Source: Chelydra serpentina
Lineage: Eukaryota; Chordata; Testudines; Chelydridae
Direction: 5' to 3'
Assembly: GCA_037349315.1 (NCBI GenBank)
Contig: JBAIAC010000001.1
Span: forward strand, 37,882,001 to 37,946,000
DNA length: 64,000 bases
Positions within the stretch are counted from its first letter, which is position 1. Every line of letters begins with the position of its first letter. The position numbers were made by a program, and so were the translations under genes. Positions 21,061 to 48,259 of this stretch are shown here, in pieces. The notes under the pieces were generated by a model. That model ran no database searches. It was not told where the DNA came from and saw only the letters and a list, made by a program, of their open reading frames with translations.

Positions 21061-23137
21061 CCTTTGTGTAGAAGAATACTCCAGAGCTGCAGGGGGAGCA
21101 TAAATGTTCTGGGGGGAAAAGGGCAAATGTGGGGGTGTGCATTATTGGTATTGGGTTTGGGGCATCTAGAATTAATAGGTAGTTTTGTTTTTTGGAATGG
21201 GCTAGAAGCCTCCGAGCCACCAGGCAGCACTTCAGGCAAATTTGTGCCATTTTATCACCTTGATCAATTGGTCCTTCAGCCCTCATATAGATTGCGCTGA
21301 TCACAACACGTCTTCCATTCTTCTCTTATCCTGGCCTTCCTTCTCCATGTGTGGCCATGCCTTTTCATGATAAAAATCTTCCCATTTCTTTGGAGGTCAG
21401 CCAAGTAGTCATTTCAGGTCCTATGGGTACCACTCGGCGACAGCTGTAGTCCATTGATTGTCAGTGAGCCTAGCTATGTGTCCAGCCCATCACAATTTAC
21501 TGCACCCACTTTCAACAATGTCCTGCACTCCATTCTGCTGTTTGATCACTTCTTTTCATCACCCTCTCCATGACAGACAGTTGTTGCTCCTCTGTCTTCA
21601 TCAGTGCCCATGTTTCACTGCCATATAACATTGCTGGCCGTACTGTTGAATTGAAGAGACTGGCGCATGTTGCCTTATTGATTTTTCCTTGGAGGACATC
21701 CTTGATAGAACTGAATGCGTGCCAACCAGCTTTCTTTCTTCGCGTGAGTTCTCCTTCCTGATCGTGGCACATGTTAATTTTTTGGCCCAAATAGACGTAT
21801 TGTTCAACTTCTTCTATTTGTTCTCCCTTGACTATTTTGGGCTTTTGGCAAAGCATCAGACCACATAAATTTCATTTTACAGAGGTTCATTTTCAGTCCA
21901 ACGTGGCTGCTTTTTATGTTGCGTTCTCGCAGCATTTTCTGTACTTTGATAGTGTTTTCGGCAATCAACACGATATTGTCCGCAAATCTGAGGTGGTTTA
22001 AATGCTCTCCGTTGATGCTGATTCCACCCTTCCAGTTCATCTGCCTCATTACCATTTTGAGGCAGGCTGTGAAGAGTTTTGGTGAAACTGTCTCCTTGCT
22101 TCAGACCTTTTTTGACTGGGATGTGAAGGGGAGCGTCAAACAGTTATATCCATAGTGCAGTCAGAGTTTGCTTCCTTTAGTAGTTTGATGTCGTTTGTGC
22201 CAATGCCCTGCTCTGCAAGAGCTTTCAGCACTGCATTGATCTCTACGCTTTTGAACGCTTTTTCATAGTCGATGAAGGCAATGCATAAAAGGAATTTGTA
22301 TTCCCTGGAGTGCTCCAATTAGTTTATAGTGAAGATATGGTCCAATGTTCTGAAATTGCTTCTAAAACCTGCCTGCCCTCTCGGTTGCTGCTCATCCAGA
22401 CTCTGAGAGTCGTTTTGTTATTATTTTGGTAGATAGCTTTAGACAAGTGACAGCAGGCATACTGGAGGATAGTTCTTTCGATCTTCACAATCGCCTTTCT
22501 TGTACAGCAAAATGGCATTGGACTCCTTCCAGCTGGATGGTGTCTTCTGCATTTCCAAGTAACGGCTAAACCTCTGAGCAAGGGTTTTCCAGAGGTCATG
22601 GCCTCCAGCTCTTACCATTTTGGTTGTCAGTCCAGCTTTTTCTGGAGATTTCCCTTCCTTAATTTGGTAAATTGCATGTTGAACTTTGCTGATGAGTGCA
22701 CACTCGTTGGTCTGTTGAAGTGTTGGTAGTGGGACATTTATTTGAGATGTGAACTGTTTAGTGTAGAAATCTTTGCAGATCGCTTCCACCCCTGTTCTAT
22801 CAATTACTGCTTTTTCGTCCTTGTTCTTCTGCGCCGTTATTGTCGGCCTGTACCGTGTCAATTCCCATTTGCATTTTATGAGGCATCTGCGATCTTCAGC
22901 CATCATTAAAAGCCTTTAATTTAGGTACTTCTTGAAGTCCTCCTTTAGTCTTCTTATCAGCTTGCAGAGGAGGGAGTACTCGAGTTTGTCACCATCATTT
23001 CACTTCATATTCCTCTGCTTCTCTAGAAAATTCTTGGTTTCCTCTTAAATTCTTCCCTTTGCTCTTTTCGGTCTCTTTCTTGGCTAATTTCACACATTGC
23101 CTCAACTTATCAGCAAAGTTTTTACAGTCCTTGTACC

Positions 23138-23493
23138 ATAGGCGCAGAATCCATGGGTGCTGCAGCCCTGCAGCACCCATGGGGAAAAATTAGTGGGTGC
23201 TCTGCCCCCACCGGTAGCCAAGCTCCTCCTGCCCCCACCCCCTCCTCGCCTCCTCTTCCCCTGAGTGCGCAGTGTCCCCGCTCCTCCCCCTCTCAGCGCT
23301 TCCCGCCCACCACCTAATAGCTGTTTGGCAGTGCTTAGGACTTTCCAGGAGGGAGGGGAAGGAGTGGGGACAAGGTGCGCTTGGAGGCGGTAGAGGCGGG
23401 GCAGGGGCAGGGACTTAGGGGAAGGGGGTGGAATTGGGGCAGGGCCAGGGGTGGGGTTGAGCACCCACGGGGCAGCGGGGAAGTTGGCACCTA
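23138..23493. mobile_element. GC-rich MITE inside the RTE LINE
   Basis: The ends cataggcgcagaatcc and gttggcacctatg are roughly inverted copies. 'cttgtac' precedes and 'cttgtcg' follows, which may be a worn duplication. Immediately inside the left end, 'ccatgggtgctgcagccctgcagcacccatgg' is a near-perfect hairpin. The interior is C-rich then G-rich. It has no coding role. Confidence 0.75.
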
Positions 23494-23738
23494 TGCTTGT
23501 CGCAGTTATCTATGAGATTCCAGTTTTCCTTTCAAATGCTGGCTTTCAGGATTGCCTTGTTGAATGCTTTTGGCCGCTGTCTCTGATTTGCCATCTGTAG
23601 CGCTTTCTTCTCCACCTTTACGTTGAAGTTAAGCTTCGTTCTGAGAAAGTGATGGTCACTACCGGTGCTGAATGACGGCACTACTGAGATGTCTTGTACA
23701 ATGCACCACTTGTCGATCAGAATACAGTCTCTTCTCCT

Positions 23739-23942
23739 CAGGGCCGGCTCTAGGCACCAGCCAAGGAAGCAGGTGCCTGGGGTGGCAAATGTGAAGGGGC
23801 GGAACTCCGTGGGTTTTTTTTCCCCGGCGGCACAGCTGTGGCAGGTTCTACATTGTTTCCTCTTGGGCCGCAGCTTTGGGACGCAGCTTTTTTTTTTTTT
23901 GCTTCGCAGCTTGGGGTGGCAGTAAAGCTAGAGCCGGCCCTG
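23739..23942. mobile_element. hAT-type MITE (CAGGGCCGGCT ends), copy 1
   Basis: The inverted ends cagggccggctctagg and gctagagccggccctg are flanked by 8-bp duplications cttctcct/cttctctt (one difference), inserted in the RTE LINE. A second copy is at 32922-33103. Confidence 0.92.
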
Positions 23943-24840
23943 CTTCTCTTGGCCTTTTTCTTAAACGAGGTGTTACCAATGAACATTTCTTTTGTCTCTC
24001 CCAGAGTTGCCAGTCACTCTCCTCATGAATTCTGTTCGCCGATGCCATACCTTCCAATGAACTTTTCACCTTCTTTCCCTCTTCCAACTTTGGCATCGAA
24101 GTCTCCCATCGCAATCATATATGTGGATTTTTGGGCAAGGGTTTCCTCAAGTTCCTGATAGAATTCTTCCACATCATCATCTTCTCTTGTGCCTGTGGGA
24201 GCATAGATCTGGATAATCTTGAGGGTGCTGTTCTTGTTCAGTTGGAGGTACAGCACTCTGCTGCATGACGACTTGAACTCGCAGATGATTTTAGAAGACC
24301 ATTCCTTGTTGACGATAAAACCGATTCCTCCAACAGTTCTCGCGGGCCTTCTCCTTTTTCCAACATGCTGGTGCTTCCATCTCTCCACTTCGCTTCCATC
24401 TCCTTTCTTTGTTGTGTTTCAGAGAGACCAAGGACATCGCAGGCTGTCCTTGCTTTCTCCTCCATTACATGGGTGATTAAGTCGTCCCTAATCAGTGTCT
24501 TGCAGTTGTAGGTACACACTGAAAAGGCAGTCCTTTCTCTGGCCCCTGAGATTCTTAACAGCCTCTCGTCAATCGAACTCCACACCGTTGCTGCAGAATG
24601 GATCAAGGGACACGCAAGGAACTGGGGCCTATTTATTCATGTTGTTTTAGCCATTTCTTCAGCCACACGCTGGCCATGCTGTCAGTGGCAGGTTTACCTC
24701 CTCAACTTAGCTAGTACCCAACCTCAAGAAGGAGGACAACTGTCCCCTTCCTGGCACCTTCATAGCATAGTAGGACCTACTGGAGAATACACTCCGCTAT
24801 CATCACTGTCAAGACAAGCAAGGGTCACTGCTGCGCTGCT

Positions 24841-26457: not shown

Positions 26458-26585
26458 TTCCCTGTTCTAGCTTTTAATCACAGGTAACACGCGTGATGTT
26501 GCAGAACAGGCTTATTTAGCTAGGTAAGTCTTCAAGGAACAATAAAGATGTTAAACATTTCAGAGAAAAGAAAGGCTGTAGAACT

Positions 26586-26813
26586 CACTCACTGTCACTG
26601 ACCGGTCCATCAGCCCTCATAGAGAAAGCACCAATCACAACACATCAGATGCGTTGTTCTAGCCATTCCTCCAACTACCCGCTGGCCAAGCTGTCAGTAG
26701 CACCGGACACCCAATTGACATAGCGCACAGCAGCCTAGAACTCCTGAGCGATCCGCCAACCGCAGCCTCCGAAGCAGCTGGGATTACAGGTGCGCGCCAC
26801 TACACCGAGCCCC
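26586..26813 (-). mobile_element. 7SL RNA-headed, RTE-tailed composite SINE
   Basis: Read on the minus strand, the first ~110 bases (26813 to about 26703) follow the 5' Alu domain of SRP 7SL RNA: blocks gtggcgcgcacctgtaatcc, cagctgcttcggaggctg, gcggatcgctcaggagttct, ggctgctgtgcgctatg and gggtgtccg occur in the right order and spacing. The next 50 bases (26702-26653) align at 42 of 50 positions with the RTE LINE 5' region at 24641-24690. The last ~60 bases (to 26590) match the RTE LINE 3' tail at about 21260-21310 (ccctcata...atcacaacac). The end is a short gtga-type repeat, not poly(A), as in RTE-mobilised SINEs. A perfect 8-bp duplication gtagaact flanks it (26578-26585 and 26814-26821). The 7SL head would bring the internal Pol III promoter. 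A one-off template-switch chimera is the alternative to a true family. Confidence 0.85.
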
Positions 26814-26837
26814 GTAGAACTATTTACTGAAAATTAT

Positions 26838-26985
26838 TATAGTTCTTTAGGACCCTACAATGCAAACACTTATGCATGTGCTTAACTTTAAACTCATGGG
26901 TAGTCCCATTAACTTCAGTGGAAGTACTCATATGCTTAAAGCTAGGCACATATGCCTAAGTGTTTTCAGGACTGAGTCTGAGATC
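26838..26985. repeat. Palindromic MITE (aacacttatgcatgtgctta type)
   Basis: The arms 'ggaccctacaatgcaaacactta...' and '...taagtgttttcaggactgag' lie around 'gtagtcccattaacttcagtgg'. It is adjacent to the 7SL/RTE retroposon. Confidence 0.7.
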
Positions 26986-32921: not shown

Positions 32922-33103
32922 CAGGGCCGGCTCCAGGCACCAGACCACAAAGCACATACCTGGGGCGGCTCCTTGTAAGGGGCAGCAGTCCAGGGATTCT
33001 GGGGCGTCTGATTTTTTTTGTTTGTTTTTTTGCTTCGGCAGCGGCCTTTTTTTTTTTTTTTTTTTTGGTGCTTGGGGCAGCCAAAAAGCTGGAGCCGGCC
33101 CTG
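32922..33103. mobile_element. hAT-type MITE (CAGGGCCGGCT ends), copy 2
   Basis: The inverted ends cagggccggctccagg and ctggagccggccctg are flanked by a perfect 8-bp duplication tccatgca (32914-32921 and 33104-33111). Contains long T runs. It is a sister of 23739-23942. Confidence 0.95.
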
Positions 33104-46439: not shown

Positions 46440-47446
46440 AGACATAGAAAGGTACAATTCAAGGTTGTTGTTGGCATTCATGGAACAGTTGCAGACAGTT
46501 GAGTGCTGGTTATGGGCCTGAGAAACAAGCACAAACTGGTGGAATTGCATCATTATGCAAGCATAGGATGATGAGTAGTGGCTGCAGAACTTAACTGTGT
46601 GGAGCTTGTCCCAGCCCTCTGGTGCAGTGACACCAAAATAAGAGCTACACTAACCATAGAGAAACAAGTGGCGATCACTGTGTGGAAGCTGGCCATGCCA
46701 GAGTGCTACCGATCAGCTGGGAATCAGCTTGGAGTTGAGAAATCTACTGTGGAGGTTGCTGTGATGCAAGTGTGCAGGGCCATTAATTGTATCCTGCTAC
46801 AAAGGACTGTGACCCTTTACAAACATTCTGAATGGTTTTGCAGCAATAGGTTTCCTGAACTGTGGTGGGGCGATAGATGGCAAACATATCCCTATTTTGG
46901 CACCCGACCACCTTGCCAAGGAGTATATCAACAGAAAGGGCTACTTTTCTATAGTATTGCAAGTGCTGGTGGATGACTGGGGACATTTTACCAACATCAA
47001 TGCAGGATGGTCAGGGAAGGTGTGTGACACACGCATCTTTAAAAAAACAGGCCTGCTTAGAAAGATGCAAGCAAGGACTTTCTTTCCAGCCTGGCGGATT
47101 ACCACTGGGGATATGGAAATGACAATAGTGATCCTTGGAGACCCAGCCTACCCCTTTCTCCTGTGGCTCATGAAGCCATACAGTGGGCACCTTGAGAGCA
47201 CCAAGGAAAAGTTCAATTACAGGCTCAGCAGGTGCAGAATGACTGTTGAATGTGCTTTTGGTTGTTTGAAAGGGTGCTGGCTCACGCAATTAGACTTTAG
47301 TGAAAAAAATATCTCCGTGGTTATAGCTGCCTGCTGTGCGCTTGATAATATCTGCGAACCAAAGGGGGGAAAGTTTCCAGTGGGGCGGAGTATGGAGGGG
47401 GAATGCCTGGCTGCTATACCGATCAGGGAGACTTTGAAAGACCTTT
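46440..47446 (+). pseudogene. PIF/Harbinger (HARBI1-like) DDE transposase relic
   Basis: The frame from 46578 carries the N-terminal helix-turn-helix region (EKQVAITVWKLAMPECYRSAGNQLG...STVEVAVMQVCRAIN). After a frameshift near 46810-46850 the catalytic DDE_Tnp_4 domain continues in frame 46897 (YINRKGYFSIVLQVLVDDWG, GWSGKVCDTRIF, GDPAYPFLLWLMKPY, MTVECAFGCLK). The acidic triad can be seen: Asp at 46876-46878 (in the GGAIDGKHI block), Asp at 47140-47142 (GDPAYP) and Glu at 47248-47250 (VECAFG), spaced 88 and 36 codons. The expected cysteine-rich end (AACCALDNICE) follows. The 3' end is cut at 47446 by a solo LTR. The triad is intact, but the frameshift and the LTR make the gene dead. Confidence 0.9.
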
Positions 47447-48259
47447 TGTCAGGGTTCCCTCCCCACTCTAAACTCTAGGGTAAAGACGTGGGGTCCTGCA
47501 TGAAGAGCCCCTAAGCTTAGTTTTACCAGCTTAGGTTAAAACCCCCAAGGTACAAAATTCCCTGCACCCTGAGAAATGCTTTTTCGCTGCCACCATCAAG
47601 TGGGTCTAAGCAGGAATCCAGGAAAAGAATCACTTGAACTTCCTTTCCCCCCAAATACACCCCCAAGCTCGGAGCCCCCTTTCTTGGGAAGCTTGAGAAT
47701 AATCCCTTAACCAATTGGTTACACAGTGATCTAAAAAAACCCACCCCCGGGGTTTTAACACCATAGAAAACAGTCAGCTTCTTAAAAGAAGGATTTTATT
47801 AAAAATAAAGAAGGTAAAATCATCTCTGTAAAATCAGGATGGTAACTATTTTACAGGGCACTCAATTTCCAAACTCAGAGAGATTCCCCCCTCTGGACAA
47901 AACCTTAAAGTTACAGAAAAACAGGAATAACCCTTCCCTCTCACACAGGGAATGTACCACCAAGCAAAATAAACAGAAATCTACTCGCAGTGCTGACTAC
48001 ACTTACTTTAGAAAAGTGAGGTTTGGTGAGGAGACTGGTTTTCTGTAGGTTCTTTCTGTCTTCCAAGATCACTCTGACAAAAAGCCACACACAAAGTTTT
48101 CCCCCTCCCAAGATTTGAAAGTATCTTGTCCCCGCATTGGTCAGATGCCAGCCAGGTCAGGTGTCAGTCTGGCTACCTGCATTTCTTAACCCTTTACTGG
48201 TAAGAGGATTTTATAGCACTGTATCAGATCCTCTCCCCCTTCCCTTTATATTTATGACA
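47447..48259 (-). mobile_element. Solo LTR, 813 bp, inside the Harbinger transposase
   Basis: Starts tgtcagggttcc, ends tatttatgaca, with a perfect 5-bp duplication ccttt (47442-47446 and 48260-48264). On the minus strand it opens tgtcataaatataaaggg with a TATA box (gctataaaatcc) about 50 bases in, and an AATAAA-type signal lies mid-way, so minus is the likely orientation. There is no internal coding region or second LTR, consistent with a solo LTR of an endogenous retrovirus. Confidence 0.93.

Follow-up and report, generated by a model that had tools for sequence, protein, structure and literature searches.

A 64,000-nucleotide stretch of the genome of the snapping turtle Chelydra serpentina (hereafter the window) carries a composite retroposon that in all likelihood belongs to a turtle family of SINEs, in which a head taken from 7SL RNA is joined to 5' and 3' pieces of an RTE-type LINE and of which one founder was multiplied. 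The element lies on the minus strand at 26586-26813 and, as read from the sequence in the 5' to 3' direction, consists of GGG, 107 nt of 7SL, one base, 50 nt of the LINE 5' region, six bases and a tail from the LINE 3' end (Table 1). In keeping with the definition of a SINE as a short, non-autonomous element present in many copies of uniform structure, it is 228 bp long and recurs in 13 copies in the form of translated gene models. It is also flanked by a target-site duplication, a perfect 8 bp seen for the window copy only; such a pair, with identical 8-mers no more than 4 nt from either end of a 228-bp interval, arises by chance at 29 of 8986 window positions tested. Self-comparison revealed no second copy of the element within the window.

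An earlier note, made from the sequence alone, had proposed this 228-bp minus-strand element with its flanking gtagaact, the alignment of its 50-nt middle with the 5' region of the LINE, the derivation of its tail from the LINE 3' end and the joining of the two LINE ends within it. All of these are borne out, the two LINE ends being separated by six bases and the 7SL/LINE junction, which had been put near 26703, being placed at 26702-26704. The same note described the head as about 110 nt of the 7SL Alu domain; the 7SL origin holds, but the head comprises only the 5' half of that domain and one stem strand.

Table 1. Positions in the window of the parts of the composite element and of the related LINE copy
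Feature	Position	Strand	Basis
Target-site duplication gtagaact, 3'-end side of element	26578..26585	.	sequence
LINE 3'-end piece, ends in short GTGA-like repeats	26586..26646	-	35/43 to 21312-21270; last 18 nt by eye
Six bases between LINE parts	26647..26652	-	covered by neither LINE match
LINE 5'-region piece	26653..26702	-	42/50 to 24690-24641, ungapped
7SL-derived head, 7SL nt ~1-113 minus 6 nt	26704..26810	-	alignment to human 7SL and Rfam
Box B position, AGTTCTAGGCT vs 7SL AGTTCTGGGCT	26732..26742	-	alignment; 7SL box as quoted in PMC7245038; activity predicted
6-nt deletion within head	26746/26747 (element nt 67/68)	-	alignment to human 7SL
Box A position, GGTGTAGTGG vs 7SL GGCGCGGTGG	26797..26806	-	alignment; 7SL box as quoted in PMC7245038; Pol III activity predicted
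GGG	26811..26813	-	directly 5' of 7SL head
Target-site duplication gtagaact, 5'-end side of element	26814..26821	.	sequence
Decayed LINE copy with endonuclease and RT fragments, relative of the presumed partner	~21260..24700 (both outer limits approximate)	-	self-match; Chelydra RT matches; weak Pfam

The 7SL origin of the head, the feature expected of a SINE1 element, emerges from both alignment and Rfam. Element nt 14-110 align with nt 11-113 of a hand-entered human 7SL sequence; across 103 columns identity is 79.6%, with a single 6-nt gap. The first 10 nt of the head match were extended by eye and hold several mismatches. Comparison with random sequence, the check that the earlier note had proposed for the head, clearly favours 7SL, the score being 104, while none of 2000 dinucleotide shuffles exceeded 31. 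Independently of this hand-entered reference, the Rfam Metazoa_SRP model matches 26673-26810 of the minus strand at 31.7 bits, or E 3e-5 for a search space of 10 kb; since this lies below the gathering score of 70, the window has no entry under Rfam's default search settings. As aligned, the head is one stretch of 7SL, made up of the 5' half of the Alu domain together with a single strand of the stem that follows. In element nt 100-228 no 3' part of 7SL can be detected, 827 of 1000 shuffles scoring equally well there, and the element does not hold the complete Alu domain formed by the 5' and 3' parts of 7SL. A search for a 3' part concealed in the LINE 5' region likewise found none (589 of 1000 shuffles as good). 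In the window copy the 5' half folds as two hairpins at roughly the human 7SL positions (-14.3 against -20.5 kcal/mol for human), and four loop bases that we take to be tertiary contacts are unchanged. Taken over all its 112 nt, the head has no folding advantage over shuffled sequence (66 of 200 shuffles as good), and the entire element has only a slight one (16 of 200).

Beyond the head, the element has the bipartite tail of RTE-type SINEs, with LINE 5' and 3' end pieces that both match one LINE copy, 2 kb away. Element nt 112-161 correspond to the 5' region of this LINE and nt 168-210, the best stretch of the tail, to its 3' end, with local scores of 68 and 64 as compared to 46 and 45 for the best of 2000 mononucleotide shuffles. 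We also considered the middle as contiguous LINE 3' sequence, which a gapped alignment does reach, but the ungapped match to the LINE 5' region is much better. The LINE-derived 116-nt part (26586-26701, minus strand) has a fold z-score of -2.2, with 8 of 200 shuffles as good; the two joined pieces are in part complementary to each other, and one long hairpin is predicted for them.

The LINE frames show weak Pfam matches to RVT_1 and Exo_endo_phos_2 that lie below the cut-off; at E 0.001, Pfam gave no match in the LINE frames submitted. Two of eight candidate proteins match the reverse transcriptase fragment, both of them from C. serpentina, with 76% and 70% identity, and four of seven candidates match the endonuclease fragment (24023-24418, minus strand). 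The assignment of this LINE to the RTE clade fits the architecture of the SINE and the known abundance of RTEs in turtles; many related RTEs have been reported from turtles and crocodilians (PMC4844689). The sole named endonuclease match is from the nematode Anisakis simplex, with 60% identity over 72% of the query. It recalls the AviRTE transfers between birds and nematodes (PMC4844689), and is a lead only because the candidates are few (seven) and length-limited. At 32922-33103, the minus strand bears a further fragment of the same type of LINE, in two pieces of 80% (55 nt) and 73% (77 nt) identity. Two repeats, with limits set by eye, are nested in the LINE at about 23141-23497 and at 23740-23945, the latter with inverted ends (agggccggctcta / tagagccggccct) like those of a DNA transposon.

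Turtle proteomes hold short gene models that read through repeats, and we therefore searched two translated frames of the element against a protein collection. Of 20 candidates, 13 matched at E<=10, with E-values from 1e-13 to 1.4e-4, and all 13 are uncharacterised C. serpentina proteins; these copies of the element come from one species and from an element-derived query, and are translated gene models. Together with the two matches to the LINE reverse transcriptase, both likewise from Chelydra, they agree with the turtle setting in which the element had been placed, and the uniformly Chelydra outcome may reflect the annotation practice of the Chelydra proteome. Eleven are read antisense and two sense to the element, and they look like separate loci because their non-SINE flanks differ by eye.

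The 7SL/LINE junction is crossed without a gap and at the same place in eight of these proteins (P0007-P0013 and P0018), with at least three LINE residues following the junction codon in each (three in P0012). P0010 runs across the two junctions in a pair of adjoining frames, with 17/21 and 35/41 identical residues, and is the one copy of the 13 in which the second junction is fully covered. P0012 is without inner LINE sequence. The first junction is without support in five rows that have no LINE 5' piece beside the head: P0014-P0016 start at this junction after one to two matching residues, P0017 has other residues there, and in P0019 LINE 3' sequence extends as far as the second junction. 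Gene-model splicing may be the cause in these five rows, and an AG on the antisense strand at the first junction could be used as a splice acceptor by gene predictors. The antisense starts of P0014-P0016 at this junction resemble antisense exonisation of Alu, as far as such predicted gene models go. Outside the proteins, pattern scans of viral_contigs gave no locus for the LINE 3' tail, two for the LINE 5' piece and one for the 7SL/LINE junction; element matches at the loci L001-L003 reach 19-23 nt at best and were taken as chance.

The copies also share changes within the head. All 13 have the 6-nt deletion relative to human 7SL, and in all of them position 7 of box B is implied to be A, seen as Leu for Pro in 11/11 antisense rows and, in the two sense rows, as Arg where G would give Gly. 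Likewise, Asp stands in place of the Gly expected from human 7SL in every one of the 11 antisense rows. We presume that the A at position 7 brings box B of the founder one base nearer to the canonical Pol III box B, as happened independently in Alu. Position 7 is G in both human and hagfish 7SL (PMC7245038); the changes were scored against human 7SL and may instead be features of turtle 7SL. The common junction and common changes point to descent from one master, and against repeated chimera formation. Over 29 head residues compared with the consensus of the 11 antisense rows, the window copy differs at one and the rows at 0-3, so that the family does not look ancient, in a search that favours query-like copies.

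The published path for RTE SINEs is internal deletion of a LINE followed by acquisition of a small-RNA head (PMC7245038), and by analogy the turtle family was probably born in the same way. An RTE would have been internally deleted, with its 5' piece joined to its 3' end, and would then have gained 7SL RNA nt 1 to ~113, whether through template switching, joining of RNAs or recombination. Boxes A and B of the head, as predicted from their sequence, would drive Pol III transcription, and the RTE 3' end would be recognised by the RTE reverse transcriptase, the RNA thus being copied into new sites with duplication of the target. Multiplication would subsequently have started from one founder that carried both the 6-nt deletion and the altered box B. 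A different birth route, and in this alone different from the reading just given, is that a pre-existing turtle SINE, which had the same bipartite tail but a head of tRNA or other origin, gained its 7SL part by recombination or template switching. Such a head swap is a real contender, to which we give somewhat less than even chances: it is the route proposed for the hagfish SINE1-1_EBu (PMC7245038), and bird RTE SINEs swap heads on one tail type (PMC4844689), but an other-headed SINE with the same tail was not found in the window, a weak test at 64 kb. No tRNA gene was found in the window by ARAGORN.

Comparison with known systems places the turtle family within a recurrent design. SINE1-1_EBu of the hagfish Eptatretus burgeri, which is attributed to RTE, shows the identical order of parts, with a 7SL-derived head, then 5' UTR pieces of RTE origin and lastly the 3' end of an RTE, and has been called the first SINE1 from beyond Euarchontoglires and also the first SINE to unite a 7SL head with bipartite RTE sequences (PMC7245038). 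It differs from the turtle element in several respects: its head joins 5' (96 bp) and 3' parts of 7SL into a predicted Alu domain, whereas the 3' part is not detectable in turtle; its pieces stem from two RTE families rather than one LINE; it ends in AAC repeats rather than GTGA-like ones; and its duplications are of about 17 bp, as against 8 bp in the single turtle copy seen (PMC7245038). The architecture had thus been described previously, since SINE1-1_EBu has it, and the RTE attribution contradicts the earlier note, in which other LINE types are said to mobilise the known 7SL SINEs (PMC7245038). The AviRTE SINEs of birds likewise set a promoter-bearing head on a bipartite tail of RTE 5' and 3' UTRs, the heads being tRNA-Glu, 5S rRNA, 28S rRNA or GC-rich sequence in place of 7SL (PMC4844689). 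The bipartite RTE tail is a recurrent design.

Bov-tA of ruminants has a tRNA-derived Pol III head on the joined ends of the RTE-type LINE BovB, and shares with the turtle element a Pol III head on joined LINE ends, while differing in its tRNA head and ruminant host. Alu and B1 also have a 7SL-derived head with boxes A and B, but in them both the 5' and the 3' part of 7SL are present, followed by a poly(A) tail, and L1 moves them, whereas the turtle element has no detected 7SL 3' part and a LINE-derived tail (PMC7245038). Descent of the turtle element from Alu is not suggested. Similarly, P7SL_MD of a marsupial and P7SL_Cpo of guinea pig are present in many copies derived from 7SL RNA, but these are full-length 7SL with poly(A) and not clearly SINEs, in contrast to a 5' fragment fused to LINE ends (PMC7245038). 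The complete Alu domain seen in the SINE1 elements of Euarchontoglires and hagfish has been put forward as a likely constraint and not as what defines the class (PMC7245038). The turtle SINE is probably a third independent birth of the 7SL-headed class. We lean towards the fuller account that this third birth, in turtles, drew on 7SL nt 1 to ~113 only, that the complete Alu domain, which has been proposed as a requirement for Alu, B1 and the hagfish SINE, was unneeded for multiplication, and that box B came nearer to the canonical form.

As far as we are aware, Alu is not expected in turtles, and any repeat consensus headed by 7SL would receive the Alu label. In the snapping turtle genome paper, Table 5 counts 1,927 'ALUs', which occupy 391,227 bp with a mean of 203 bp, and the section giving them makes no comment on them (PMC7718744). 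We infer that these are probably the 7SL-headed turtle SINE family. Alu counts are absent from the main text of five turtle genome papers (PMC5451010, PMC11315351, PMC10960847, PMC7186784, PMC4054807). In a full-text literature search, whose scope lay outside most subscription journals, Repbase and Dfam, no title among the matches listed names a turtle 7SL SINE, and no paper matched Chelydra combined with 7SL. The novelty that the earlier note had claimed therefore stands in part, with no turtle case among the matches listed but the 7SL-head/RTE architecture known from hagfish (PMC7245038). What is new is the turtle host and a head in which the Alu domain is reduced to its 5' half; the multi-copy turtle SINE is undescribed as far as searched. 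That the family is already named in Repbase or Dfam, whether unpublished or published elsewhere, we consider rather unlikely: the 'ALUs' class yielded by the Chelydra repeat library indicates that at least one pipeline met a 7SL-like repeat (PMC7718744), but no title among the matches listed points to such a name and the SINE1 hosts given in a 2024 paper are primates, rodents and hagfishes only (PMC10886601).

Much less probable is a single template-switch chimera, in which one 7SL RNA and a deleted LINE RNA were joined and never multiplied. The presence of one copy within the window would suit it, and chimeras of 7SL and LINE-1 are known in mammals (PMC13174262). Recurrence of the junctions elsewhere, which had been proposed as the means of telling a family from a chimera, speaks strongly against it: the first junction is found in 8/13 Chelydra proteins rather than at one locus, both occur in P0010, and the deletion and box-B change are in 13/13. 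Chance resemblance to 7SL or contamination by primate Alu has a vanishingly small probability, given the shuffle maximum of 31 against 104, a head that continues to 7SL nt ~113, beyond the 7SL 1-63, 76-83 and 267-299 that are all that Euarchontoglires SINE1 share (PMC7245038), and the joining of this head to LINE sequence in Chelydra proteins too.

Two further features were noted in the window. A palindromic stretch beside the element (26865-26964, minus strand) has sub-threshold Rfam matches to MIR2606 and mir-6536, and is more likely a remnant of an inverted-repeat transposon than a miRNA. On the plus strand, a 221-aa open frame at 46813-47478 has a DDE_Tnp_4 transposase domain (Pfam, E 4.2e-26), and presumably belongs to a Harbinger-type DNA transposon.

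The commonest repeat of the human genome, Alu, is a 7SL-headed SINE, and in the literature surveyed clear 7SL-headed SINEs are confined to Euarchontoglires and hagfish. The surprise is that this rare head class recurs with half an Alu domain. If the reading of a multiplied turtle family is true, 7SL would serve in it as Pol III promoter and half Alu domain, and the 'ALUs' in reptile repeat tables suggest themselves for re-examination. A turtle SINE with an RTE-type tail and half an Alu domain would be a natural test of the proposal that a complete, SRP9/14-binding Alu domain is required to multiply.
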